Notes under the pieces: model-generated | What the model was told of the DNA's origin: nothing | What the model saw: only the letters and a program-made list of their open reading frames with translations | Database searches by the model: none | NCBI GenBank assembly: GCA_017993835.1 | Contig: JAGOLX010000024.1 | Location: forward strand, 1 to 39,208 | DNA length: 39,208 bases | Origin: Phycisphaerae bacterium | GTDB taxonomy: Bacteria > Planctomycetota > Phycisphaerae > Sedimentisphaerales > Anaerobacaceae | Direction: 5' to 3' | Shown here: positions 631 through 17,406 of the stretch, piece by piece | How the letters are laid out: each line of letters starts with the position of its first letter | Numbering within the stretch: the first letter of the stretch is position 1 | Position numbers and translations under genes: made by a program

Positions 631-3600
631 TCACTCGTCGTTGACCTCCACCGGCAGACTGACCGGCTCGGTGGCCTTTCCCTCGTACAGGACATAGTAC
701 GTAAGGGTGTAGAGGCCGACCGCGGGAGCTGTCCATGCGTGTCGCACGGGCAGGACCTCGCCCGGCGAGAGAGACCCAATCTCGTCGGTGAACGTAACGA
801 CGCGTAGACCACTGGAGTCGTCGATGCCGAGCAGGCCGGTGCCCGATAGAGGTAACCAGCCGGAGTTCTGAACGGTCGCGTCAATCGTGACGACTTCTCC
901 CACGGAGGCGAGCTGCGGCGTCGCGTCCAGGTCGGACACTTGGCAGTCGTAGAGCCCCAGTTGGACGGTTCGCACACTCGAATCGAGCAGCGACCCCTCC
1001 AGCGACCGCAACTCTGCGCGCAGAACATAGACGCCGGCGGGGACATCGGTCGTGTCCCACAGGCAGGCGTATGACGCCCGACCCTCCAACGCGTGCAGAC
1101 AACGCAGGGGCAGGCCGGCCACGACTTCGCTGGTCATCGAGTCGAGCACGACCGTCTGTACGACCGTGTCGTCCGCGGTCCCATCCCGGGCGAGCAAGAA
1201 ATCCACGCAGACGCTGTCGCCGGGCTGGGCAATGATGTCGTCCGCCACCATGTCGGTGATCTGGACGTCGCCGGTGGTTGCCTCGACCGCGAAGCGGAAC
1301 CACCTGTGAAAGCGGATCTCATGCGTCTGTGCATTGTACCGGACCGGATAGACCGACAGGGCCAGCACTACCTCCGTCGGGGTCTCGTGCACGTCCCACT
1401 TGAATAGCCTGTCCGGCCACCACGTGGACCCGTCGCTCGTGGTCAGGGGCCCGCCGATGCCGCCCGGCAAAGCGTTTGTCGCCTGCGCGAGATCGACGCC
1501 TGTCATCCCCTCGGGCTCCGAGAGTCCTTCGAGCGATACCTGCTGGATTTGCGTGTCGCGGGGATAGCTCCGGCGGATCGTCATGTAGGGCACAAGCGGC
1601 ATGTCCGGAATCGAGAGGATCTGTCCCCCCGGCAACGTCAGGTACGTCCGGCCATCCACCTCGCGGGCTTCGTAATCGCCGATCTCGACCTCGACAGGCG
1701 TCCATTCGTTCGCGTCGGCGCCGCAGAGCGCCACGTTCTTGAGGCCGGCCCCCGGCGCCGACGGCGTTCCGACAGCTCCGAATTTCGGATCGCCAAATAC
1801 ATGGTATGTCTGGGACCAGAGCTCGTCCTCGATCTCGTCGCCGATGTTCTGCTTGGTCTCCTTGACGGCCTGGCCGACGGATTTGCCGAGATCCCAGCGT
1901 TGGAAGAATGAATCGGAATACCCTTGCCACCCGGCAGAGTCCGTGGCTCCAAGGTACACTGCCGCACCGGCGTCCAGGAAGGCCTCCGCGAGGCAATACG
2001 TTCCGGCGTACCGTCCGGTCTTGCATGAATGCGCGAAAACGAACGGGCTGGTCGTCCCGAAGAGATTGGCTTTGCCCTGGATGTCCGCAGTCGTGACGCC
2101 GTTCCAACCCGAGGGATTCCCGTGCCCGGCCAGGAAGATCACGTCCTGATCCGTCATCTCGGCGAGCAGCTTGGCGGTCGGCGGCTGATCCAGCACCGTC
2201 TGCGCGGTCAGGGGAGCCACGTACTGCTTCTCCAGAGCCGACAACGCACCGTTGACCCAACTCTTGAAGTCGATGGTATTGTCGCCTGTGCCGGGGTCAC
2301 CGCTGACCAGCAGGGAATGGGATCGGTCGAACGTCTTGCCGCCCAGAGCGGTCTTGATGGCGGTCCTTATCGCGCCGGCGGAGTTGCCGATGATTCGCCC
2401 GATGCTTAGTTCCGGCCACTGTTCATCGCCCGACGTGCTCGCGTAACGGTAGTCGGAGACAAAGTCCCAGACCTGCGTGCCTCCCGTGTACTCGTAGGTG
2501 ATCTTCTTTGCCTGGGCGGGTACGATCTCGTTCTCGCCCACGATCAGCAGGTATCCGCTCGATGCCCAGCCACTGGCGAGCTGGCTGCTCCACGCGCCGC
2601 CCACGTGAACGAGCTGGACGAGACTCGCGACGTCATACTGATCGTTGTAGCCTAGTGTGCCCTGCTTGGCGAGAGCCAGCTCCGCCATGAGGGACAACAC
2701 GCTGTCCACGTCTGCCGTTGCCTGTGTGGCGCCCTGGTAGAAGCTGGGGTTGAATGCCGCGTAGAGCCGATATGGGTTGGTCACGATGAGGTAATCACAG
2801 ACGCTAACCGCTGCCTGATGAGCCTGTTCCAGGTTCTGCGTTCCCTGGGGCGAGGTGACCTGAACGACAGGCCATGGATCGGAGCTGAAGTAGCCCTGGC
2901 TGGCCGGCGGAGGACCACCGTAGTCCAGGTAGATGAACTGGCCAATCTGGGATGCAGGGAGAGACGGATACTGCAACACCGGCACGGCGTTGTACGTGAA
3001 GGTCCTCTTGGCAGACGCAGAAATGTCGTTGCTGTGGATTTCGCAGTAGCCGAAGCGGCCCTTGGGATTGTAACGGCCGAACCACTCGCCCTCGGCGCTG
3101 CTGCCCGCAATGGCCTGGAATCCGGTCATGCCGGACTGAATGACGACGTCGTGGGCTGTCGCCGTGCCCTGGTTCTCGACCACCAGCGAGATGGTGAACT
3201 GATTGCCGGTCCTGGAGACGGTGTGTCCTATGACCTTGAGCCAGGGGTATTGCGGCACCGCCGTGACGTTGCTGATGAACAGGCGGACCATGTCCGCTCC
3301 ATCCCGGTAGGCGGTGTCCCACGCCTGGACCGCGATGTCGTGCGGGTCGTTTGCGATCTCCTTGGACACCTGGCGCGTATCCAGCGTGAACTGGACGTGT
3401 GCTTTTGTCGGAGGTGTTGCGCCGCTGAACACCTCCTGCTGTACGAGTTTCCCATCCACATAGAACTCCGCCTTCCAGAGTCCTTTGTCGTCCGTCACGT
3501 CCGCTTCAATCTGGATGTCGCCTGAGACGGAGGCTCCCGCCTTGGGGGACGTGATGCGAACGTTCGGACCTCTCTCCTCCACCAGGTTCTCGATATCCAC

Positions 3601-5187
3601 AGTCTGCGAGATCGCAGTGTGCTTGCCCACCTGGTCGTGGGCTGTCGCCGCGACAGAATGCGGGCCGTTGTCATACTGTGTCGTGTCTATCGGCGCCTCG
3701 TATGGTGGCGAGTAGTCGATCAGGATCGGCTCGTCATCCACAAAGAAGACGACGCGATCGACGCCGGTATCGTCCTCAGCCTGGACGGAGATGATGGCCA
3801 TGCCCGCGGGGCGCGCAGGCGCCTCGATCGTCAGGCTCGGAGGACTGTCATCCTGTTCGGACAGGGTTTCAAACAGCAGGTCTCTTGTCGTCAGTTGGTC
3901 TCCGCTCCGGCCCGTGCAGGTCAGGACGAAATGGTACACCGTGGACTCTGTCAGACCCGACAGGATAAGATGATGGCCGACTGCCCAGAGCGGATCATCT
4001 GCCTGATGTGGGTACAGCCTCGCGTTTTGGCCGTAGCGGATGACGCCTGTGCTCTCGACGTTGGTCTGCCACGCAATTGCGACCTCGTGTGGGGACAGAT
4101 GCTCAACGTTTGGCCCCGCAACGAGTTCCAGGCCGGTCTGGCCGTCGTCCGGGACGGAGCCTGTCTCGACATTGCCGAAGTCCGCTCGCGCGACCTGGCC
4201 CGGCTCGACGGTGACCGCCCACGCCGTCGGCTCGCCCATGTCATCGAGTGGCCAGACCTGCCGCCACCCATCTTCCACGACCTGACCCACCCGGTAGGCG
4301 CCGGGATTCAGATCGGAGAAGACGTAGTCGCCCTGTGGGTTGGTCCACGTCGTGTTATCGGAGCCGTCGGGTACTCCGTCTCCGTCGTCATCGAGGAAGA
4401 CGATCCAACCGGCGAGGCCGTTCTCGTCCGGGTCCATCCAGCCATCCCCGTTGAGGTCGTCGAAGACCGTGCCGCGGATTTCGCCCATGGGCAGCGTCTC
4501 TGCGAGGACTGTCACGGTAACAATCGCGGTGTCCTCGCCGCCCCGACCGTCGCCCACTGTGTAGGTGAACACATCCTCACCGACGTAACCTGCATCCGGC
4601 GTATAAGTGACCGACTGTCTCTTGTAGACCGCGGCACCGTGGGCCGGATCGGTCACGCCAACGATGGAGAGCGAGTCGCCGTCCGGGTCACTATCGTTGG
4701 CCAACACGGGAATATCCACCGGCGTATCCGTCGCGGTAGTCGCGATATCGTCCCGGGCTGTAGGCGGGCGGTTGTCGCTTCTGTCATAGAAATTGTTGTC
4801 GGCGGTCGACCCTGTCATCAACTGTCCGAGATCATACCGGATCCAGTCGGCCGAGACATACGTACCGCCGACGGTGGTCGACGTGACGGACGTGTAGTCC
4901 GGGAGGTTGGTCTGGACGATGTGGAAGTACTCAGACGTGCCGGAATCGCGGAGGTGCAGATCGTAGTATCCTCGCTCATCGGTTGTCGTACTGAGAGCCC
5001 GTTCCCCCAAAACCATGGCATCGTTGGAGACGTACAGACTCACGGTCACGCCGGCCAGCGGGCCGACCACTTCGCGAGCCTCACCCTCATAGACGTGCCC
5101 GGAAAGATCGACCGAGTCTGCCAGAACCCCCTGGGGCAGTACGAGACATGACCCGACAATGGCCGCTACCCAACGTGCACCACTCAT
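631..5187 (-). CDS. Secreted multidomain C25 (gingipain-type) cysteine peptidase
   Basis: Predicted exported protease of 1518 residues. An N-terminal signal peptide (about 1-23) is followed by a carboxypeptidase-regulatory/Cna-B-like domain (25-115), a cadherin-like/VCBS-type domain with NDSDPDGDSL (140-228), an SdrD-B-like domain rich in Asp (235-340), a fibronectin III/purple-acid-phosphatase-N-like domain (355-442), two Ig-like domains (450-640) and a CARDB/DUF11-like segment (648-740). The C25-like catalytic region spans about 795-1135. It carries a clan-CD dyad: His1022 in FLAGHGNPSGW and Cys1055 in FAHSCKTGR. Further beta-rich CARDB-like modules follow. No C-terminal sorting motif or anchor is visible. 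The start at 5187 is chosen because ACAGGAG lies just upstream and a signal peptide follows directly; the reading frame continues upstream without coding character. A sigma70-like promoter lies at 5341-5369. Substrate and activity are not known. Confidence 0.85.
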   Translation of the reverse strand: MSGARWVAAIVGSCLVLPQGVLADSVDLSGHVYEGEAREVVGPLAGVTVSLYVSNDAMVLGERALSTTTDERGYYDLHLRDSGTSEYFHIVQTNLPDYTSVTSTTVGGTYVSADWIRYDLGQLMTGSTADNNFYDRSDNRPPTARDDIATTATDTPVDIPVLANDSDPDGDSLSIVGVTDPAHGAAVYKRQSVTYTPDAGYVGEDVFTYTVGDGRGGEDTAIVTVTVLAETLPMGEIRGTVFDDLNGDGWMDPDENGLAGWIVFLDDDGDGVPDGSDNTTWTNPQGDYVFSDLNPGAYRVGQVVEDGWRQVWPLDDMGEPTAWAVTVEPGQVARADFGNVETGSVPDDGQTGLELVAGPNVEHLSPHEVAIAWQTNVESTGVIRYGQNARLYPHQADDPLWAVGHHLILSGLTESTVYHFVLTCTGRSGDQLTTRDLLFETLSEQDDSPPSLTIEAPARPAGMAIISVQAEDDTGVDRVVFFVDDEPILIDYSPPYEAPIDTTQYDNGPHSVAATAHDQVGKHTAISQTVDIENLVEERGPNVRITSPKAGASVSGDIQIEADVTDDKGLWKAEFYVDGKLVQQEVFSGATPPTKAHVQFTLDTRQVSKEIANDPHDIAVQAWDTAYRDGADMVRLFISNVTAVPQYPWLKVIGHTVSRTGNQFTISLVVENQGTATAHDVVIQSGMTGFQAIAGSSAEGEWFGRYNPKGRFGYCEIHSNDISASAKRTFTYNAVPVLQYPSLPASQIGQFIYLDYGGPPPASQGYFSSDPWPVVQVTSPQGTQNLEQAHQAAVSVCDYLIVTNPYRLYAAFNPSFYQGATQATADVDSVLSLMAELALAKQGTLGYNDQYDVASLVQLVHVGGAWSSQLASGWASSGYLLIVGENEIVPAQAKKITYEYTGGTQVWDFVSDYRYASTSGDEQWPELSIGRIIGNSAGAIRTAIKTALGGKTFDRSHSLLVSGDPGTGDNTIDFKSWVNGALSALEKQYVAPLTAQTVLDQPPTAKLLAEMTDQDVIFLAGHGNPSGWNGVTTADIQGKANLFGTTSPFVFAHSCKTGRYAGTYCLAEAFLDAGAAVYLGATDSAGWQGYSDSFFQRWDLGKSVGQAVKETKQNIGDEIEDELWSQTYHVFGDPKFGAVGTPSAPGAGLKNVALCGADANEWTPVEVEIGDYEAREVDGRTYLTLPGGQILSIPDMPLVPYMTIRRSYPRDTQIQQVSLEGLSEPEGMTGVDLAQATNALPGGIGGPLTTSDGSTWWPDRLFKWDVHETPTEVVLALSVYPVRYNAQTHEIRFHRWFRFAVEATTGDVQITDMVADDIIAQPGDSVCVDFLLARDGTADDTVVQTVVLDSMTSEVVAGLPLRCLHALEGRASYACLWDTTDVPAGVYVLRAELRSLEGSLLDSSVRTVQLGLYDCQVSDLDATPQLASVGEVVTIDATVQNSGWLPLSGTGLLGIDDSSGLRVVTFTDEIGSLSPGEVLPVRHAWTAPAVGLYTLTYYVLYEGKATEPVSLPVEVNDE

Positions 5188-5340
5188 ATCCGACGCTCCT
5201 GTCTCGCTGATAAGGGACTCGAGAAGCATGTGGCCAGCCGGTCCGAGGAGACCCTCCGTGCGGGATACAGCGAAGGCACGCCACAAGTCTCCGATACTGG
5301 GCCAAGTGTTTCGCGCAGCGTCTCCGATCTGACACCGACT

Positions 5341-5369
5341 AGTATACACTTGGAACGAATCCGCGGCAA
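5341..5369 (-). promoter_or_regulatory. Sigma70-like promoter of the C25 peptidase gene
   Basis: Read on the minus strand, TTGCCG (5364-5369) and TATACT (5341-5346) are separated by exactly 17 bases. Transcription would begin near 5334, giving a leader of about 147 nt before the ATG at 5187. The leader contains ATCGGAGAC twice but fits no riboswitch class I recognise. Confidence 0.6.
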
Positions 5370-5644
5370 GCTCTCTCTGGCCGTCTTCGCATCGCGCGTC
5401 CGGACAAGTCCTCAGGTTTGACGTTTGCGTCCAGATAGCCCTGGCTAGGCGCACCCCTCGCCGCTACCGATCACGCACCACCGTAACTCCTTGTCTGGAA
5501 ACGTGTTACTTCGTGGCCCAGGTGTCAGACACCCGCGGTCTTCCCTGGTGATCTACCGTCCAGAGCGAGAAATCTATAACTTCTACGTGCAGATTGTAAC
5601 ATATTGCGCCATAATACGTCTTATAGAGTATACAGGAGTACATC
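5370..5644. other. Intergenic region upstream of the HTH-Clp_N gene
   Basis: No gene is seen here. The last 75 bases (about 5566-5640) are much richer in A and T than the surroundings, as expected for a promoter region, but no well-spaced -35/-10 pair is evident. A perfect dyad GGTGTC-A-GACACC lies at 5521-5533, about 110 bases before the start of the HTH gene, and could be an operator. A good Shine-Dalgarno (AGGAG, 5634-5638) lies six bases before the ATG at 5645. Confidence 0.4.
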
Positions 5645-6343
5645 ATGCAACTAATGTCGATAGAAGATCTTGCCGTGTACCTGGGTGTGTCCAAGCGGAC
5701 GATCTACAAGTATCTCGCTGACGGAGACTGCCCGCCTTACATCAAGCTCAGCAGCAAGAACATCAGCTTCGACCGCGGAGATGTCGATACGTGGTTGGAG
5801 TCCAAGAAGGTCTACCCTCCATGTGCCGCCCAGAACACGAGCGATCGGAAGCCCTGTAGCGGCAAGACGACCGCGTCGTCAGTTGATCCTGACCGGCTGC
5901 CGTGGACGCCGCGGGCAGAAGCCGTTCTGAATGGGGCACGCCAGCAGGCCCGCGAAGATGGCTTCGCCGAGGTCGGCACCGAGCACCTGCTCCTTGCGAT
6001 GTTGTCTCTGAACGAATGCCTCGGAGCAGTGATCCTCGAACGGCTTGCCGTATCACGTGAGACGTGCCGTCATCGGTATGAGCAAGTCATGCACCCGTCG
6101 GGCAAACGGATTCGCGGCAGGATCCCCCTGTCTGTAGACGTCGACGAAGTGACACAGTGCGCTCGTGAGCAGGCTGGCCAGTGGGGCCACACATACATTG
6201 GCGCCGAACATCTGCTCGCGGGAATTCTCATGACCCAACGAGGAGTGGGATTTCAGATCCTCACTGACCTGGGCGTTACGTTAGATCGCGTCCGGGAAGA
6301 AACCGCCAAACTGGTTGTCTGCCATTGCGTATCGAACGAGTAG
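5645..6343 (+). CDS. Excisionase-type HTH fused to two Clp N-terminal repeats
   Basis: A 232-residue protein. Residues 4-55 form a MerR/excisionase-like helix-turn-helix (HTH_17 type: SIEDLAVYLGVSKRTIYKYL, then a basic strand and DVDTWLESKK). A low-complexity linker (56-85) leads to two Clp_N repeats at about 87-150 (GTEHLLLAML) and 160-224 (GAEHLLAGIL). The EHLL motif of ClpA/ClpC N domains is present in both. There is no AAA+ ATPase module. In Clp proteins the N domain recognises adaptors, substrates or phospho-arginine, so this could be a DNA-binding protein that senses or recruits such partners; that is inference. The start is supported by AGGAG with six-base spacing. It has no partner on the same strand and converges on prmC. 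A second open frame continues past the stop (see findings). Confidence 0.85.
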   Translation: MQLMSIEDLAVYLGVSKRTIYKYLADGDCPPYIKLSSKNISFDRGDVDTWLESKKVYPPCAAQNTSDRKPCSGKTTASSVDPDRLPWTPRAEAVLNGARQQAREDGFAEVGTEHLLLAMLSLNECLGAVILERLAVSRETCRHRYEQVMHPSGKRIRGRIPLSVDVDEVTQCAREQAGQWGHTYIGAEHLLAGILMTQRGVGFQILTDLGVTLDRVREETAKLVVCHCVSNE

Positions 6344-6487
6344 CTGGCAGGCGAGAATCGTCGGACTCCAGAAGAACGCTGGAGAACAAACGAGAGAACG
6401 TGAAGTTACGGCTGGAAGGCGGCAAGCTTGCCGATGAGCTGGAGCAGGTCCGCAAGCAACAGCTACCCCAATGATCCAGACACGCGA

Positions 6488-10083: not shown

Positions 10084-13000
10084 ATGAGAGTACTGTCTCG
10101 CCGTGGATGGCGTTTGTTCGGGTTCATATTCGTGGTGATCCTGGGGTCGGCCGGATCGGGATCTGCTCTGGTCGTCAGTGAGATCATGTACCATCCACTC
10201 GAGGATGCCGCCACCGGCGACGAGATACTCGAATTCATTGAGCTGTACAACAATCGGGCGGTGTCGGAGGACCTCAGCAAGTGGGCCTTCACGAACGGCA
10301 TCGAGTACACATTCGATCCCAACACGACTCTGGGTCCCAAGTCCTACATGGTGATCGCAAGAGATCCCAATGCCCTGTCGACGGCTTATGACATCACGGG
10401 CGTCCTCGGCCCCTACACGGGCAAGCTGAATAACGACGGCGAGCGGATCGAGTTGTCCAACGCGGCCGGCATGATCGTGCTGTCGCTGCGGTACAACGAC
10501 GCGGATCCATGGCCCGTCTCGCCGGATGGAGCCGGGCACTCGCTGGTCCTCGCCAAGCTCGGCGGCGATCCGGATCAGGCGAGTTCCTGGTCGCCCAGCA
10601 CCTATCTCGGCGGCACCCCCGGCCAGCCGGACAAGATGCAGGCCGTGCAGGAGGACCCGACGATGGTCGCTCTTGTGCAGATCGGAACGAATGGCCGGTA
10701 CTTCAAGGGCACCCGAGAGCCGTCGCCCAGCGCCAGCGGACAAGCCACCATCGCCTGGACGCAGGTAGGCTTCAACGATGCTGCGACCGGCTGGCTGCAA
10801 GGCGCCAACGGCTATGGCTACAGCAACAGTTCCGCGGAACTGGCATATATCAACACCGTGCTGGCCGATATGTCGGGGAACTACATCTCGATCTACGCCC
10901 GCCTGCCCTTTACGCTGACCGCCGCACAAGTGGACTCCTTCACCCAACTGCTGGCCGAGGTCCACTATGATGACGGCTACATCCTGTATCTCAACGGCAC
11001 TCGCGTCGCAGATTCCGGCACGATGTCGGGCAATCCGCCGGCATACAACGCCAGCGGCGGCACGGCCACCGAGCCGGAGGTCGCCACCGTCGACCTGACG
11101 GCCTACAGCAATCTGTTGTTCGAAGGGACCAACATCCTGGCTATCCAAGCCCACAATGCGGCGCTTTCGGGCAGTTCGGACGCCTTTGGATGTCCCATCC
11201 TTCGAGGCGTCATCGCCCAGTCCGAGGCCGACGAGAACGTGAGCGCCCGCCTGCTGATCAACGAACTGCAGGCCAACAGCGATGCGGCCCCCGGCGTCGA
11301 TTGGATCGAGCTGTACAACCCGGGTCCCATCGCCGTGAGCCTGAACCACATCTATCTGAGCGATGACCGTCTGGACCTGCTGCAATACAAGATTCCGGAC
11401 GGCGTCATGCTGCAACCCGGCCAGTTCTGGACGGTGCAGCAGGGTGCGGAGCCGTCAGGCTTCCCCTTCGGCCTCGCCTCCTCCGGCGAAACGGTCTACC
11501 TTACCGCGGCGACGAGCGACGCCCAGCCGACGCCCGTCCGCGTCCTCGACGCGATGCGGTATGGGAACCTGGAGCCCGATGTGACGTTCGGGCGGTGCCC
11601 GGACGGCGCCGACTCGCTCGACTGCCTGGCCTCGTCCACATTGGGAGCGTCGAACTCGGACAGGCTGATCCGCGACATCGTGATCAACGAAATCATGTAC
11701 CACCATGCGTCGCGAGAGGAGCAGTACGAGTACGTCGAGCTGTACAACCGAGGCGAAAATCCAGTCTCGCTCGGCGGCTGGGCGTTCACCGACGGGATCG
11801 AGTACACGTTCCCCGACGGCGCCACGATCGCGCCGGATGGCTATCTCGTCGTGGCCAAGGACCCCAATTTCCTCGCGGTCGTCTATGACGACCTGGTCGT
11901 CGGAGAGAATCTGCTGGGGCCCTATGAAGGCGGACTCGACGACCGCAGCGAGCGAATTCGCCTTTCGTACCCACTCAAGCAGGTTGGGGAATCCGCCGAG
12001 GAGCAGTACGTCACCGTCGACGAGGTGACCTACCACGACGGCGGACGCTGGCCATCCTGGGCGGACGGCATGGGCGCCAGCCTGGAGCTGCGCGACCCGC
12101 GAGGCAACAACGACACCCCCGACGCCTGGGCCGACAGCGACGAGAGCGGCAAGACCCAGTGGCAGCAGTTCTCTTTCACGATTCCGTCCACGGACAATCG
12201 CTACACGCACAGCACCGTCTCGATCTTCGACTTCATGATGCTCAACGCCGGCGAGGTGCTCCTCGACGATCTGCAATGCGTCGTCGGCGGGACCAACCGC
12301 ATCAGCAACAACGGCTTCGAGAGCGGCGAGACCTCCTGGCGAATTCTCGGCAACCACACGCGGTCGTTCGTCACGACGGAGGACCGGGTTTCCGGGTCCA
12401 GCGCCCTGCACCTGGTCGCCACCGGCCACGGGGACCCCGGCGCCAACCGGATCAACCAGTCGATCACGAACGTCAGCGCGACCAGCGTCACCTTCAGCGG
12501 CTGGGCCCGCTGGCTGCGGGGCAGTCGGTTCCTGCTCCTGCGGACGAGCCGACCGCAATCGCCTGTCATGCCGCCTTGGCCGTCTCACGCCTTCGAGCTG
12601 AGCATGCCGCTCGATCTGGGCACGCCGGGCCGGCAGAACACCGCATTCGTCCACAACCGCGGGCCGGATATTCTCGACGTGCAGCATTCGCCCGCCCTGC
12701 CCACCGCAGGCGAGTCGATTGTCGTCACCGCTCGCGTCGTCGACAACGACGACGTTGCCTCCGTCACGCTTCGTTACCGGGTCGAGGGCGTCACCACGAC
12801 GTTCTTCACGGCGCCCATGGTGGATGACGGCTCCGGCCTGGACGAGGTCGCCGGCGACCATGTTTTCACGTACGCAATCACCGGCGCCACCGCCGGCAGA
12901 ATCTACGCCTTCTACATCGAGGCCACCGACGGCGCCGCATCGACGCGGTTCCCTGCGAAGCTGGCGTCCTCCGCCGAGGCGCCGGAACGGACCTGCCTGG

Positions 13001-14196
13001 TCCGCGTCGGCGACACGAAGAGCACCAGTCGGCTCGCCAACTACCGCATCTGGATGCCCAACGACGTCATGAGCGCGTTCCAGGCTCGCGCGAACCTCTC
13101 GAACGAGCTGCTGGATTGCACGTTCGTTTACAACGACACGGACGTGTTCTATAACTGCGGGATTCGCCTCCGCGGCAGCCCGTTCCTCCGCAGTGGTTCG
13201 GGCTGGACCCCGCAGGTCGGGCGGGGTCTCCGCATCGAATTTCCTGCGGACCACACGTTCCGAGGCCGCGAGGAGATCAACCTCGACTGGACCGAGGGCA
13301 ACGACCGAGGCCCCCTCCAGGAACGCGCCTCCTACTGGTTCTATGCCCAACTGGGCTTGCAGCACTCCCGACAGGAATGGGTCCGCCTGTTCGTCAACGG
13401 CAACAGGCTGAACAACTTCGAGGATGTCCAGAAGATCGACGGTGACTACATCGACGCATGGTTCCCCGAGAACAACGAAGGCTACATTCACAAGATCGAC
13501 GATTACTTCGAGTACAGCGCCGACGGCACGCAGTACTCCAATATCGACGAAGGCCTCCTGTACAACTCTTCGCATCCGCTGATTCCGGAGACCTACCGTT
13601 GGCACTTCGAGAAGCGATCTCACCCCGAGGACGACGTCTGGCAGCACCTATATGGGTTGGCCATGGCGTTGAACACCTCCTCGACCAGCCCCCTGTACGA
13701 GAAGCTCGTCGAGGCCCAAACAGACCCGGCGCACTTCGCCATGATGCTGGCGCTGCGTCATGCGGTCGGCGATTGGGACAGCTATGGATACACGCGAGGC
13801 AAGAACAACGCGTTGTACTACGCCCTGCCGGAAGGCAAGTGGTACCTGCTGCCCTGGGACATCGACTTCACGCTCGGATCGGGCAACGGCAGCAGCACGA
13901 GCCTGTTCAGCGTCGGAGGCCAGTTCCCGGAGGTCAGTCAGTTCCTGAACTACGCCAAGTACAAGGAGATGTATTACGATGCCTTCCGGGAGTTGGTGAA
14001 CGGCCCGTGGAAGACATCCTATGGAACGAACAACCCGCCGACGCCCTTCGACATCTTCCTCGACGAAGGGGCCGACCTGCTGACCTCCGAGGGGCTCGGC
14101 GACGGCCGGCGCAACGGCATCAAGCAGTTCGTTCGCGACCGTCGGACCTTCATCCTGTCGCAGATCCCGGACAAGGACGATACGCCGAGACGATAG
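10084..14196 (+). CDS. Secreted lamin-tail / CotH kinase-fold protein
   Basis: A 1370-residue exported protein. A signal peptide (about 1-28) precedes lamin-tail domain 1 (29-150, VVSEIMYHP), a beta-rich module with YDDGYILYLNG (about 195-380), lamin-tail domain 2 (387-500), lamin-tail domain 3 (530-690, VINEIMYHH), a carbohydrate-binding-like module (about 700-830) and an Ig/choice-of-anchor-like module (about 860-960). A CotH-type region (about 985-1300) follows. CotH of Bacillus spores is an atypical protein kinase, and hallmark residues are present here: KNNALY near 1240 and PWDIDFTLG near 1257-1265, with both Asp residues of the PWDxD motif. No C-terminal anchor is seen. AGGAGGAG seven bases before the ATG supports the start. 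Kinase activity is inferred from the family only. Confidence 0.88.
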   Translation: MRVLSRRGWRLFGFIFVVILGSAGSGSALVVSEIMYHPLEDAATGDEILEFIELYNNRAVSEDLSKWAFTNGIEYTFDPNTTLGPKSYMVIARDPNALSTAYDITGVLGPYTGKLNNDGERIELSNAAGMIVLSLRYNDADPWPVSPDGAGHSLVLAKLGGDPDQASSWSPSTYLGGTPGQPDKMQAVQEDPTMVALVQIGTNGRYFKGTREPSPSASGQATIAWTQVGFNDAATGWLQGANGYGYSNSSAELAYINTVLADMSGNYISIYARLPFTLTAAQVDSFTQLLAEVHYDDGYILYLNGTRVADSGTMSGNPPAYNASGGTATEPEVATVDLTAYSNLLFEGTNILAIQAHNAALSGSSDAFGCPILRGVIAQSEADENVSARLLINELQANSDAAPGVDWIELYNPGPIAVSLNHIYLSDDRLDLLQYKIPDGVMLQPGQFWTVQQGAEPSGFPFGLASSGETVYLTAATSDAQPTPVRVLDAMRYGNLEPDVTFGRCPDGADSLDCLASSTLGASNSDRLIRDIVINEIMYHHASREEQYEYVELYNRGENPVSLGGWAFTDGIEYTFPDGATIAPDGYLVVAKDPNFLAVVYDDLVVGENLLGPYEGGLDDRSERIRLSYPLKQVGESAEEQYVTVDEVTYHDGGRWPSWADGMGASLELRDPRGNNDTPDAWADSDESGKTQWQQFSFTIPSTDNRYTHSTVSIFDFMMLNAGEVLLDDLQCVVGGTNRISNNGFESGETSWRILGNHTRSFVTTEDRVSGSSALHLVATGHGDPGANRINQSITNVSATSVTFSGWARWLRGSRFLLLRTSRPQSPVMPPWPSHAFELSMPLDLGTPGRQNTAFVHNRGPDILDVQHSPALPTAGESIVVTARVVDNDDVASVTLRYRVEGVTTTFFTAPMVDDGSGLDEVAGDHVFTYAITGATAGRIYAFYIEATDGAASTRFPAKLASSAEAPERTCLVRVGDTKSTSRLANYRIWMPNDVMSAFQARANLSNELLDCTFVYNDTDVFYNCGIRLRGSPFLRSGSGWTPQVGRGLRIEFPADHTFRGREEINLDWTEGNDRGPLQERASYWFYAQLGLQHSRQEWVRLFVNGNRLNNFEDVQKIDGDYIDAWFPENNEGYIHKIDDYFEYSADGTQYSNIDEGLLYNSSHPLIPETYRWHFEKRSHPEDDVWQHLYGLAMALNTSSTSPLYEKLVEAQTDPAHFAMMLALRHAVGDWDSYGYTRGKNNALYYALPEGKWYLLPWDIDFTLGSGNGSSTSLFSVGGQFPEVSQFLNYAKYKEMYYDAFRELVNGPWKTSYGTNNPPTPFDIFLDEGADLLTSEGLGDGRRNGIKQFVRDRRTFILSQIPDKDDTPRR

Positions 14197-15381: not shown

Positions 15382-17406
15382 CTACAGTTCGTAGGCGTAG
15401 AACGCGACGCACTCGTAGGTGTAGACTTTGGAGTACTCCTTGATGAGCAACGTGTACTCCGCCTCGCTGATCGTATAGAAGTAGCTGCCGTCGCTGTTCT
15501 TCATGAAACGATAGACGGGCATGACATCCGCAGGTTGAGCCCCTTCGGGATAGGCGTAGAACACAATCCCCTCGTAGGTCCAGACATCGGACGACTTTGC
15601 TACGAGCGAGTCCTTCTCCTGTTCATCGATGGTGTAGAAGTGGACCTGACTCTTGTCCGACCAGAAGCGATACACCGGCGCCAGGCCGGACCTGAAAGCC
15701 GTGGTGGCCGCCATGAAGACCGGTCCTTCGTATGCCCAGGCGTCCGGATACTGCCTGACGAGATAGTCCCGCTCCGCGGAGTCGATCGTGTAGAAGTGCC
15801 TCTCCAGGGCCGCCGACCAGAAGCGATATACCTCGCTGAAGGAACCGACCACAGACCTGTGCAGGGCGCCTGCATCGACAACGAAGTTGTCGAACCAAAC
15901 GTCGCCCGACGCCACGGCAAAGCCGCTGGCCCCGCCGGCAAAGAAGATAGCGACCGGCACACCTTCCCAGGAGTCCTGGAGCACATCCGAGACTGTCACC
16001 CAGGCATTCTCTCTGCCGTAGCCCCTGTCGCTGATATACAGCTTGTCCAGCGCCGCATCATAGGACAAGTAGAACGTGCCGCCACTCTGCCCACGAATCA
16101 TGCTGCGGAACTGGCTGAGCTTACTATCGCTCGTCTCGTGCCAGATGTACGGCTTCTGCTCGCTGCACCCGACTCCCACGCGGACATAGCGCACATCCAG
16201 GTTGTTGACATCGGGCGCGATCCCGAAGGAGATCCATCCGGACTCCTCGGTGACCAAGTCATAATGGAAGTCCACGCGGAACGAGAAGTCCCCGCTAGGA
16301 TCGATTTGCCAGTCGTCAGCGGCACAGTACGCGGCGAACCCTCTCGACTTCCACGTCGTCAGCAACTCCAGACGCTGATTCCTCTCTGTGAGCAGGCAGT
16401 TCGTCAGGTCGTCGCCAGAAATCGCCCAGGAGTCCGACAGAGCATTGTCGTCGAAATCATCGGAGAAAGCCGTCGCATCGTCTCCTTCTTGTTTCGCCTT
16501 CTCGGCGGCCAGCGCCAGGCTGAAGTAGAGCCCGCCGGCGATGGCCTCGAAGTCGTTGCCGTCCGGCGGAACCGCCTGTCCCCAGTCGGGGTGATCGCCG
16601 ACCTCGGCGCCGGCGCCCCAGCCCACGAGCGTTCCGTCCCGCCTCAAAGCCAGACCGTGGAGGTAGCCTGCGGAAGCCGCGACGAAGTCCTCGCCTCTCG
16701 GCACGAGGTCGAGGCCATAACCGTGGGAATCCAGCCCCCACCAGACGAGCGAACCGTCGTCCCGGATCGCGACGGAGAATGCCCCACCCGCGGCGATGGC
16801 GGTGAAGGCGCCGGTCGTCGGCATCCCATCGAGCGCAGCCCAGTAGCCCCAGGCCGCAAGCGATCCGTCGGAGCGCAGGGCCACCGCGTGATCGTCGCCA
16901 GCCGCCACGGCCGTGAAACCCGTGCCGGAGGGAACATCGGAGACCTGTCCCCAGCGGTCATTGCCCCAGGCGACGAGCGAACCGTCGGACCTCAACGCCA
17001 CCGCGAAGAACTCCCCGCCGTCCACTGCGACGAAATTCGTGCCTTGCGGGACCCCGGAAACCTGTCCGCCGCCGTCATAACCCCAGGCGGCAATCGAGCC
17101 GTCGGAGCGCACCGCCAGACTGAAATCGGCGCCGGCTCCTATGGCCCGGTAGACCCCGGTGGGAACATCGCACTGGCCATCGTCGTTGCGACCCCATGCT
17201 ACGACGATTCCGTCGGACCGCAGTGCCAGCCCGTGGGCGTCGCCCGCAGCGACCGCTGCGTAGTCCCCTCCCGCCGGGATGCCTGTCACCTGCCCGTCCC
17301 TGTCCAGACCCCAAGCCCGCAACTCGCCGGCCTGCGATAGACCGGTTGCGCAGACAGTCAGCAAGACCGCCGCCACCCATGCACGATGAATTGTCGGCCA
17401 CTTCAT
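15382..17406 (-). CDS. Secreted RCC1-repeat protein with C-terminal DUF5648 repeats
   Basis: A 674-residue exported protein. After a signal peptide (about 1-26), residues 28-310 hold about seven RCC1/BNR-like repeats with the recurring pattern ALRSDGS-AWG and GxGQ/DG, expected to fold as a beta-propeller. A concanavalin/LamG-like segment follows (about 320-515, starting at FSDDFDDNALSDSWAI). Three DUF5648 repeats end the protein (about 523-674). Each has the pattern VYRFW/M, H/YFYTI, an acidic helix and YEG/C-(V/I)F. No anchor or catalytic residues are recognised, so a binding or structural role outside the cytoplasm is most likely. GAGGAGG before the ATG supports the start. A near-consensus promoter and an unusually long leader precede it. 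Confidence 0.85.
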   Translation of the reverse strand: MKWPTIHRAWVAAVLLTVCATGLSQAGELRAWGLDRDGQVTGIPAGGDYAAVAAGDAHGLALRSDGIVVAWGRNDDGQCDVPTGVYRAIGAGADFSLAVRSDGSIAAWGYDGGGQVSGVPQGTNFVAVDGGEFFAVALRSDGSLVAWGNDRWGQVSDVPSGTGFTAVAAGDDHAVALRSDGSLAAWGYWAALDGMPTTGAFTAIAAGGAFSVAIRDDGSLVWWGLDSHGYGLDLVPRGEDFVAASAGYLHGLALRRDGTLVGWGAGAEVGDHPDWGQAVPPDGNDFEAIAGGLYFSLALAAEKAKQEGDDATAFSDDFDDNALSDSWAISGDDLTNCLLTERNQRLELLTTWKSRGFAAYCAADDWQIDPSGDFSFRVDFHYDLVTEESGWISFGIAPDVNNLDVRYVRVGVGCSEQKPYIWHETSDSKLSQFRSMIRGQSGGTFYLSYDAALDKLYISDRGYGRENAWVTVSDVLQDSWEGVPVAIFFAGGASGFAVASGDVWFDNFVVDAGALHRSVVGSFSEVYRFWSAALERHFYTIDSAERDYLVRQYPDAWAYEGPVFMAATTAFRSGLAPVYRFWSDKSQVHFYTIDEQEKDSLVAKSSDVWTYEGIVFYAYPEGAQPADVMPVYRFMKNSDGSYFYTISEAEYTLLIKEYSKVYTYECVAFYAYEL

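Follow-up and report, generated by a model that had tools for sequence, protein, structure and literature searches.

The window, that is, the whole stretch of DNA analysed here, comprises 39,208 nt (JAGOLX010000024.1, forward-strand positions 1 to 39,208). At 5645–6343 on the forward strand it carries an ORF of 232 aa with an ATG start, a stop codon and a Shine-Dalgarno sequence (AGGAG, 5634–5638, forward strand). An earlier note on this DNA had described the product as an excisionase/MerR-type HTH joined to two Clp_N repeats without an AAA+ module, a description confirmed by matches to Pfam, NCBIfam and PDB sequences. The two profiles whose use the note had proposed, HTH_17 and Clp_N, both scored above cut-off. 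Residues 3–54 (5651–5806, forward strand) form a winged HTH of the HTH_17/AlpA/excisionase kind (Pfam HTH_17, E = 4.6e-11, 43.2 bits against a cut-off of 27), which is also matched by the NCBIfam model TIGR01764 'excise' (31.5 bits against a cut-off of 28.8) and, above its curated cut-off, by the AlpA profile. Compared with structures, the HTH profile matched AlpA (8c3t, 1.5e-6) and Gp37 (4j2n, 1.6e-4); the match to RdfS (8dgl, 0.34) was not significant. Residues 87–224 (5903–6316, forward strand) form a double Clp_N module (Pfam Clp_N, E = 2.3e-20, 73 bits against a cut-off of 20.7, in two stretches) similar to the N-domains of ClpC and ClpC1 among PDB sequences (best E = 1.7e-20), including the phosphoarginine-bound 5hbn (E = 6.9e-17).

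Structure prediction, also suggested in the earlier note, gave an AlphaFold model with a mean pLDDT of 73. It comprises a wHTH of the order E-H-H-E-E-H (E3-5, H6-13, H17-26, E32-34, E40-43, H44-53; pLDDT ~65-72), a linker predicted to be disordered (residues 56–82, pLDDT <50) and, after the wHTH, a Clp_N part of eight helices which superposes on ClpC1 NTD structures (Foldseek, TMt 0.82–0.91). An AAA+ module is absent from all 12 fused orthologues, this protein included; they come from 12 genomes and end 3–11 residues past the Clp_N match. Thus Clp_N is strongly matched and none of the 12 orthologues (0/12) continues into an AAA+ domain, the two points on which the earlier note had staked its reading. 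The host genome contains a separate ClpC frame of 853 aa elsewhere, and a second, stand-alone Clp_N protein of 175 aa (C17) without a DNA-binding domain. At the level of sequence, these data confirm that ORF 5645–6343 encodes an HTH and a complete double Clp_N, and that it represents a gene family rather than an accident.

Orthologous HTHs were found in 21 of the 89 genomes of the host's Planctomycetota family. Where a single ORF extended more than 150 aa from the HTH start the locus was called fused; by this definition 12 of the 21 loci are fused to Clp_N and nine carry a stand-alone HTH of 64–67 aa, with both forms present inside single genera (g62, g27). HTH and Clp_N were never found as two separate ORFs of at least 100 aa (0/21 family loci), and the fetched stretches of the nine HTH-only loci contained no separate Clp_N ORF of at least 100 aa. 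Another family of the same order contributed five further loci, all short HTH-only frames (26 of 161 genomes in total), and one HTH locus was found among 391 other genomes sampled across the phylum. A scan of GTDB contigs returned 38 loci, of which five partial matches (33–58% identity) were dropped, leaving 33 strong loci with 71–90% identity over ~58 aa. Eleven of these are fused, each corresponding by the length of its contig (nine identical, two differing by no more than 100 bases) to a member of the family's 12, and 22 are HTH-only. Among the strong loci are Colwellia sp. 75C3 (whose record is not marked as a MAG), two records of uncultured Kangiella sp. and MAGs assigned to Verrucomicrobia and Hydrogenedentota; binning errors may affect such assignments. 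Going by their labels, records from four phyla contain the small operon that begins with the 58-aa HTH. Under a label other than Planctomycetota, this HTH is 78–84% identical to the one in the window, and all six such loci (6/6) lack Clp_N. Among the loci found by the HTH search, the fusion was seen only in one Planctomycetota family, and no HTH-Clp_N fusion appeared in the titles and opening abstract lines of the best-ranked open-access papers. A mobile element was considered and rejected, as the HTH had no match in plasmids (at 1e-8), phages (at 1e-5) or IMG/VR and prmC lies within the fetched stretch at 15 of the 21 same-family loci.

The survey of genome neighbourhoods proposed in the earlier note revealed several features that the note had missed, namely an HTH/membrane operon, an internal start in relatives, 10-bp promoter repeats and a truncated partner gene. 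The gene directly downstream of the HTH or fusion gene, often overlapping it as ATGA, encodes a product of 59–104 aa (start codons provisional); a single TM segment is predicted in it, and its charged, coiled-coil-like tail is of the kind RLRLEVGKLADELEQ. By a hydropathy rule of our own making, this membrane partner is present at 9 of 11 fused and 20 of 22 HTH-only loci, and at some loci there are two or three tandem copies. It matched no family above cut-off in Pfam (10 members tried; the best match below cut-off was LapA_dom, 7e-5) or in NCBIfam (3 members tried). In the host's family, the Clp_N module sits between the HTH and the membrane gene, in frame with the HTH. Upstream, apt was found at at least eight loci and a sigma factor at at least seven (genes named from sequence). 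The HTH/membrane operon can also be seen at L132:4001–4397 and at L129, L115, L116, L130 and L134, under the labels Colwellia sp. 75C3, Kangiella, Hydrogenedentota and Verrucomicrobia.

In the window, what is left of the membrane/coiled-coil gene lies at 6370–6474 on the forward strand. A gapped DNA alignment indicates that its start codon and TM segment have been deleted; positions 6370–6465 match residues 38–69 of the partner from genome G007 at 88%, and besides this remnant no partner match was found in the host genome at E 1e-4. On the other side of the fusion gene, between it and apt, the reverse strand (631–5454) encodes a 1607-aa protein with Ig/cadherin-like domains and a Peptidase C25 domain; at L054 and L056, apt ends only ~190 bp upstream of the HTH gene. 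Also in the window are genes for a Lamin-tail/CotH kinase protein of 1370 aa (10084–14196, forward strand) and for an RCC1-repeat protein of 674 aa with DUF5648 (15382–17406, reverse strand).

A closer inspection of the HTH/Clp_N junction revealed a GGAGGT-N6-ATG in frame at codon 65 in 10 of the 12 fused genes. The exceptions are L071, with GGAGAA-N6-ACG, and the window, where the same positions (5825–5839, forward strand) read GCCGCC-CAGAAC-ACG. Apart from TTG 162 and GTG 171 in L059, the 12 fused genes yielded no further in-frame start with a Shine-Dalgarno of similar quality. Third codon positions of the linker agree at 0.54 on average, and codons 61–62 stand at 0.875; linker dN exceeds Clp_N dN in five of seven pairs (exceptions L060/L061 and L070/L073). 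The presence of the junction site in 10 of 12 genes suggests that most relatives probably produce a free Clp_N of ~170 aa as a second product, which would be absent in the window copy. Judged from these alignments, the window copy is a partly decayed example, its membrane partner lost by deletion and its internal start lost.

Most relatives carry, upstream of the gene, TGCATATT-like direct repeats at an exact spacing of 10 bp. A scan for TGCATATT-like words with up to two mismatches covered 33 of 34 loci (L134 was missed by the search expression). Repeat pairs were found at 10 bp in 28 of the 33 upstream regions, at 20 bp in 20 and at 30 bp in 15, against means of 0.9, 0.8 and 0.7 sequences (maxima 4, 4 and 3) in shuffled controls, which ignore the kinship of the loci. 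No 10-bp pair was found at L056, L057, L064, L130 and L137. The 10-bp spacing also occurs in the Colwellia, Kangiella and Hydrogenedentota records: among the six loci labelled as other phyla, four have 10-bp pairs and L130 has one unit, L134 lying outside the scan. By eye, the repeats overlap a TTGCAT-17-TATATT-like promoter in relatives; in the window, no sigma70-like promoter was found at the scan threshold. The 20 HTH-bearing family genomes searched (all of the 21 but G090) contain five exact copies of the triple repeat CATAT-N5-CATAT-N5-CATAT, and every copy ends at -19 of the HTH gene. With one mismatch there are 12 occurrences, six at HTH promoters and six elsewhere, against three in a reversed-pattern control. 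Altogether, 11 of the 17 matches (5 exact, 12 one-mismatch), including an overlapping pair, fall at HTH promoters and represent 10 genomes. The strict triple pattern is missing from the HTH promoter in 10 of the 20 genomes, including G000 (the genome of the window), G005 and G007. A regulon beyond the own promoter was considered, and no target is claimed, the six matches elsewhere all carrying one mismatch and comparing with three in the control.

In the window, a candidate operator of four 8-bp units at 10-bp steps (5588, 5598, 5608 and 5618) was placed at 5588–5625 on the forward strand from the repeat scan and an alignment of the genus. Only the units at 5588 and 5598 pass the scan; those at 5608 and 5618 were placed by eye, following the register seen in relatives. 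Among the genus-mates, L056 lacks any 10-bp pair and the scored pair of L054 is out of register, with further units recognisable by eye. The earlier note had instead proposed a dyad at 5521–5533 as the target of the HTH. This dyad, GGTGTC-A-GACACC, exists, but the two nearest orthologues do not share it, and the one further exact copy in the genome falls inside predicted ORFs; the dyad is therefore unsupported as an operator.

Direct repeats at 10 bp are as expected for a head-to-tail array of HTH_17 proteins. In the accessible portions of the two sources, BldC, a member of the HTH_17 group, binds direct repeats head to tail (PMC5859096), with one DNA turn between the protomers of its filaments, and the same model has been proposed for RdfS (PMC11963761); both are HTH_17-group proteins that oligomerise head to tail (PMC5859096, PMC11963761). 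The fusion resembles BldC, RdfS, Xis and AlpA in belonging to the HTH_17 group by profile and in having AT-rich direct repeats spaced by roughly a helical turn (PMC5859096, PMC11963761, as far as these portions go), a trait found in 28 of 33 upstream regions, the window having two units only. However, those portions describe no sensor domain for BldC or RdfS (PMC5859096, PMC11963761), whereas the fusion carries Clp_N and its relatives head a membrane-protein operon. It is likely, from the position and spacing of the repeats, that the HTH protein controls its own promoter, and the repeats are best regarded as a candidate operator.

The ClpC N-domain, together with McsA and McsB, belongs to the protein quality control of Firmicutes. 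The accessible part of PMC12583610 describes ClpC E106 and E32 as crucial for the two phosphoarginine pockets, and K85, which is touched by cyclic peptides, as crucial for the resting state. In the alignment, E106 (pArg1 pocket) corresponds to E188 of the fusion (codon at 6206–6208, forward strand), which is Glu in 12/12 fused orthologues, and E32 (pArg2 pocket) to E113 (5981–5983, forward strand), which is Glu in 11/12; the equivalent of T7 is likewise kept in 11/12. The equivalents of P82, R83, K85 and E89, on the other hand, are found in 0/12 fused Clp_N each, against 25/25, 23/25, 25/25 and 25/25, respectively, in N-domains of same-order ClpC (this alignment keeps identical rows, hence 25 ClpC rows against 22 in the Clp_N tree below). 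The reference ClpC has 76 residues, not the expected 74, between its TEH motifs, and so the numbering was started afresh from the motif of each half. With E106, E32 and T7 kept and P82, R83, K85 and E89 lost, the fused Clp_N has the look of a ligand-binding module that has been freed of its contacts within ClpC. Both glutamates are kept in the stand-alone Clp_N rows too (9/9, with K85 in 7/9), so that the TEH motif which holds them may also be structural.

Compared with known Clp_N proteins, the fusion shares with the ClpC N-domain its fold, both pocket glutamates and the presence of McsB and a McsA-like ORF in the same genome, but it lacks the AAA+ and M-domain of ClpC as well as the four residues above. 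Stand-alone double Clp_N proteins, such as C17 of the same genome and plant ClpT1/T2 in the Foldseek search, also lack AAA+; C17, however, has no DNA-binding domain. Two proteins of 666 and 497 aa in the same-genus genomes G002 and G008 (L162:1621–3618 and L161:1645–3135, both on the reverse strand) have six and four Clp_N stretches, respectively, arranged as tandem double Clp_N followed by a 23S_rRNA_IVP (S23-like) domain, again without AAA+. The McsB homologue of the host genome has an adjacent McsA-like ORF, named from sequence (G000:C89; L074:749–1264 and following). The McsB domain PF00217 is present in 77 of the 89 family genomes irrespective of the fusion, so that its co-occurrence with the fusion is uninformative and lends no support. 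The idea in the earlier note that a DNA-bound protein may sense protein damage or arginine phosphorylation stands, with the pocket glutamates kept and McsB and a McsA-like ORF in the genome. Its other suggestion, delivery of a DNA-bound factor to ClpP, is disfavoured, because the equivalents of P82, R83, K85 and E89 are lost in 12/12 and Clp_N alone is not known to have a ClpP-docking part. Overall, the domain make-up, the lack of AAA+ and the sensing idea of that interpretation survive, whilst the dyad target is unsupported and the ClpP delivery disfavoured.

In a tree of 48 Clp_N rows (duplicate loci L002, L003, L015 and L018 and identical sequences left out), the 12 fused Clp_N form one clade with a support of 100/99 and a stem of 1.19 changes per column, apart from the ClpC rows; the nine rows of stand-alone Clp_N branch elsewhere in the tree. 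This tree is midpoint-rooted, 23 of its 45 inner branches are weak and it carries long-branch warnings, including one for L162_184 meeting the fused clade. The end branch of the window (0.22, against 0.15 and 0.32 in two genus-mates) is not accelerated. Pairwise dN/dS between the window and two same-genus orthologues is 0.07–0.10 for the HTH and 0.14 for Clp_N (NG86; several dS exceed 1, so the values are rough). From these low ratios and the unexceptional branch, the regulator appears to be still under selection despite its lost partner. In a PrmC tree of 15 of the 21 loci (the other six had no matched stretch of at least 200 residues), fused and HTH-only loci are mixed, with four changes on the best tree; this is no fewer than with shuffled labels, and well-supported branches force at least two. 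Given one clade of fused Clp_N and this mixing, the probable history of Clp_N is either a single gain followed by repeated loss or transfer between loci.

Mycobacterial ClpC2 is the closest functional parallel to which the fusion was compared. In the accessible part of PMC10030653, ClpC2 represses its own promoter, acts as sensor and sponge, and is relieved of autorepression by a Clp_N ligand; like the fusion it is a double Clp_N without AAA+ preceded by an extra N-terminal domain. That domain supports high-affinity DNA binding in ClpC2, but it is a four-helix dimerisation bundle where the fusion has a wHTH, and the proposal for ClpC2 is that its Clp_N part contacts DNA, the site being a palindrome adjacent to the start, whereas the fusion has an HTH and candidate 10-bp direct repeats (same part of PMC10030653). 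The DNA-contacting R185 and R189 of Mtb ClpC2, in that text, correspond by our own mapping of ClpC2 to ClpC numbering (from F172/F80) to E175 and Q179 of the fusion, and are Arg in only 1/12 and 2/12 fused rows. The ClpC2 palindrome CGTCAAC-n5-GTTGACG is absent from the fusion promoter; allowing up to three mismatches it has two matches in the window (2239 and 14660), against 2.37 expected by chance. A membrane partner and an internal start go unmentioned in the accessible part of PMC10030653, whereas the fused relatives have the partner and an internal start-like site. As the N-terminal bundle, the Clp_N arginines and the palindrome are all missing, the fusion may work like ClpC2 by analogy but is not a ClpC2. 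These comparisons mark it as a new architecture within a known kind, the autoregulators that bear Clp_N, placed in an operon for whose membrane protein the searches gave no named family.

We tentatively read the protein as an HTH-Clp_N autoregulator whose Clp_N would read a ligand of the Clp pathway, a reading to which we give a little less than an even chance. The HTH would bind head to tail, one protomer per helical turn, on the 10-bp repeats at its own promoter, and we infer that the bound array would repress the operon, that is, HTH-Clp_N plus, in most relatives, the small membrane coiled-coil protein. Clp_N, freed from ClpC, would bind a Clp quality-control ligand, most likely a phosphoarginine-marked or misfolded protein, and the bound ligand would weaken the DNA-bound array and switch the operon on. 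Where the internal start exists (10 of 12 fused genes), free Clp_N would be made as well and could act as a sink for the ligand or as a competitor of the repressor; in the window, the regulator remains without internal start and membrane partner. By analogy with ClpC2, Clp_N is plausible as the ligand-responsive part, though we would put this, too, slightly short of even. Counter to Clp_N sensing, the HTH occurs without Clp_N at 9/21 family loci and 6/6 other-phylum loci, so that ligand sensing by Clp_N cannot be the basic mode of the HTH. Moreover, the disordered linker does not suggest tight coupling between HTH and Clp_N.

The strongest rival to the sensing autoregulator is that Clp_N is cargo: a complete Clp_N cistron with its own Shine-Dalgarno and ATG would have entered the HTH/membrane operon, and the fusion would mainly serve to bring free Clp_N, as a sponge or chaperone-like decoy, under the control of the HTH. 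The HTH would then act as it does alone, and ligand binding would be uncoupled from DNA binding. The internal SD-ATG in 10 of 12 fused genes, the same promoter repeats on HTH-only operons, the disordered and poorly conserved linker and the mixing of fused and HTH-only loci on the PrmC tree (though the 12 fused Clp_N form one clade) all point this way. However, the full-length ORF is intact in the window and L071 despite the lost internal start, the window branch is not accelerated next to its genus-mates (0.22 against 0.15 and 0.32) and HTH and Clp_N occur as separate ORFs of at least 100 aa at 0/21 loci; we consider this rival rather unlikely, if to be taken seriously.

A second possibility is that Clp_N is a handle for regulated proteolysis that recruits adaptors or ClpC, the DNA-bound repressor being degraded in the manner of CtsR in Bacillus. 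The host genome does have a ClpC frame, McsB and a McsA-like ORF, and ClpC N-domains associate with adaptor and regulatory proteins (accessible part of PMC10030653). However, Clp_N serves ClpC in recognition and is not itself a degron; the equivalents of R83 and K85 are changed in 12/12, and K85 is the residue crucial for the ClpC resting state (accessible part of PMC12583610). A handle of this kind is improbable. Slightly more so is the view that the gene in the window lineage is a decaying relic from which membrane partner, internal start and part of the operator have gone. The deleted 5′ half of the partner, the lost internal start, the weak repeats and the large Peptidase C25/Ig-domain gene now between fusion and apt are in keeping with it; yet the 232-aa ORF is intact with dN/dS of 0.07–0.10 (HTH) and 0.14 (Clp_N), pairwise rates with which a very recent loss of constraint is compatible, the window is not flagged as a long branch in the Clp_N tree and weak repeats are common to its genus-mates. 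Finally, although the Clp_N of the fusion shares ancestry with ClpC N-domains, a truncated ClpC is ruled out, and an assembly artefact made extremely improbable, by 12/12 fused orthologues in 12 genomes ending 3–11 residues past Clp_N, by their own clade (100/99, stem 1.19) apart from ClpC and by the separate 853-aa ClpC frame.

Taken to its full extent, the preferred reading of a sensing autoregulator would be of one gene with two proteins: an HTH-Clp_N repressor reading pArg-tagged or misfolded proteins, and a free Clp_N buffering the same signal, built by insertion of Clp_N into a cross-phylum HTH/membrane operon and coupling McsAB/ClpC quality control to transcription of a membrane coiled-coil protein in Planctomycetota. 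That all of these parts hold together is unlikely. If the sensing reading is right, a bacterial protease would be linked directly to transcription through its ligand-binding domain instead of through its activity; this would be a second such design, next to ClpC2, and Planctomycetota would have a testable reader of arginine phosphorylation. The HTH/membrane coiled-coil operon is of interest by itself, as a cross-phylum regulator with similar promoter repeats at most of the other-phylum loci scanned and a membrane protein that matches no named family.
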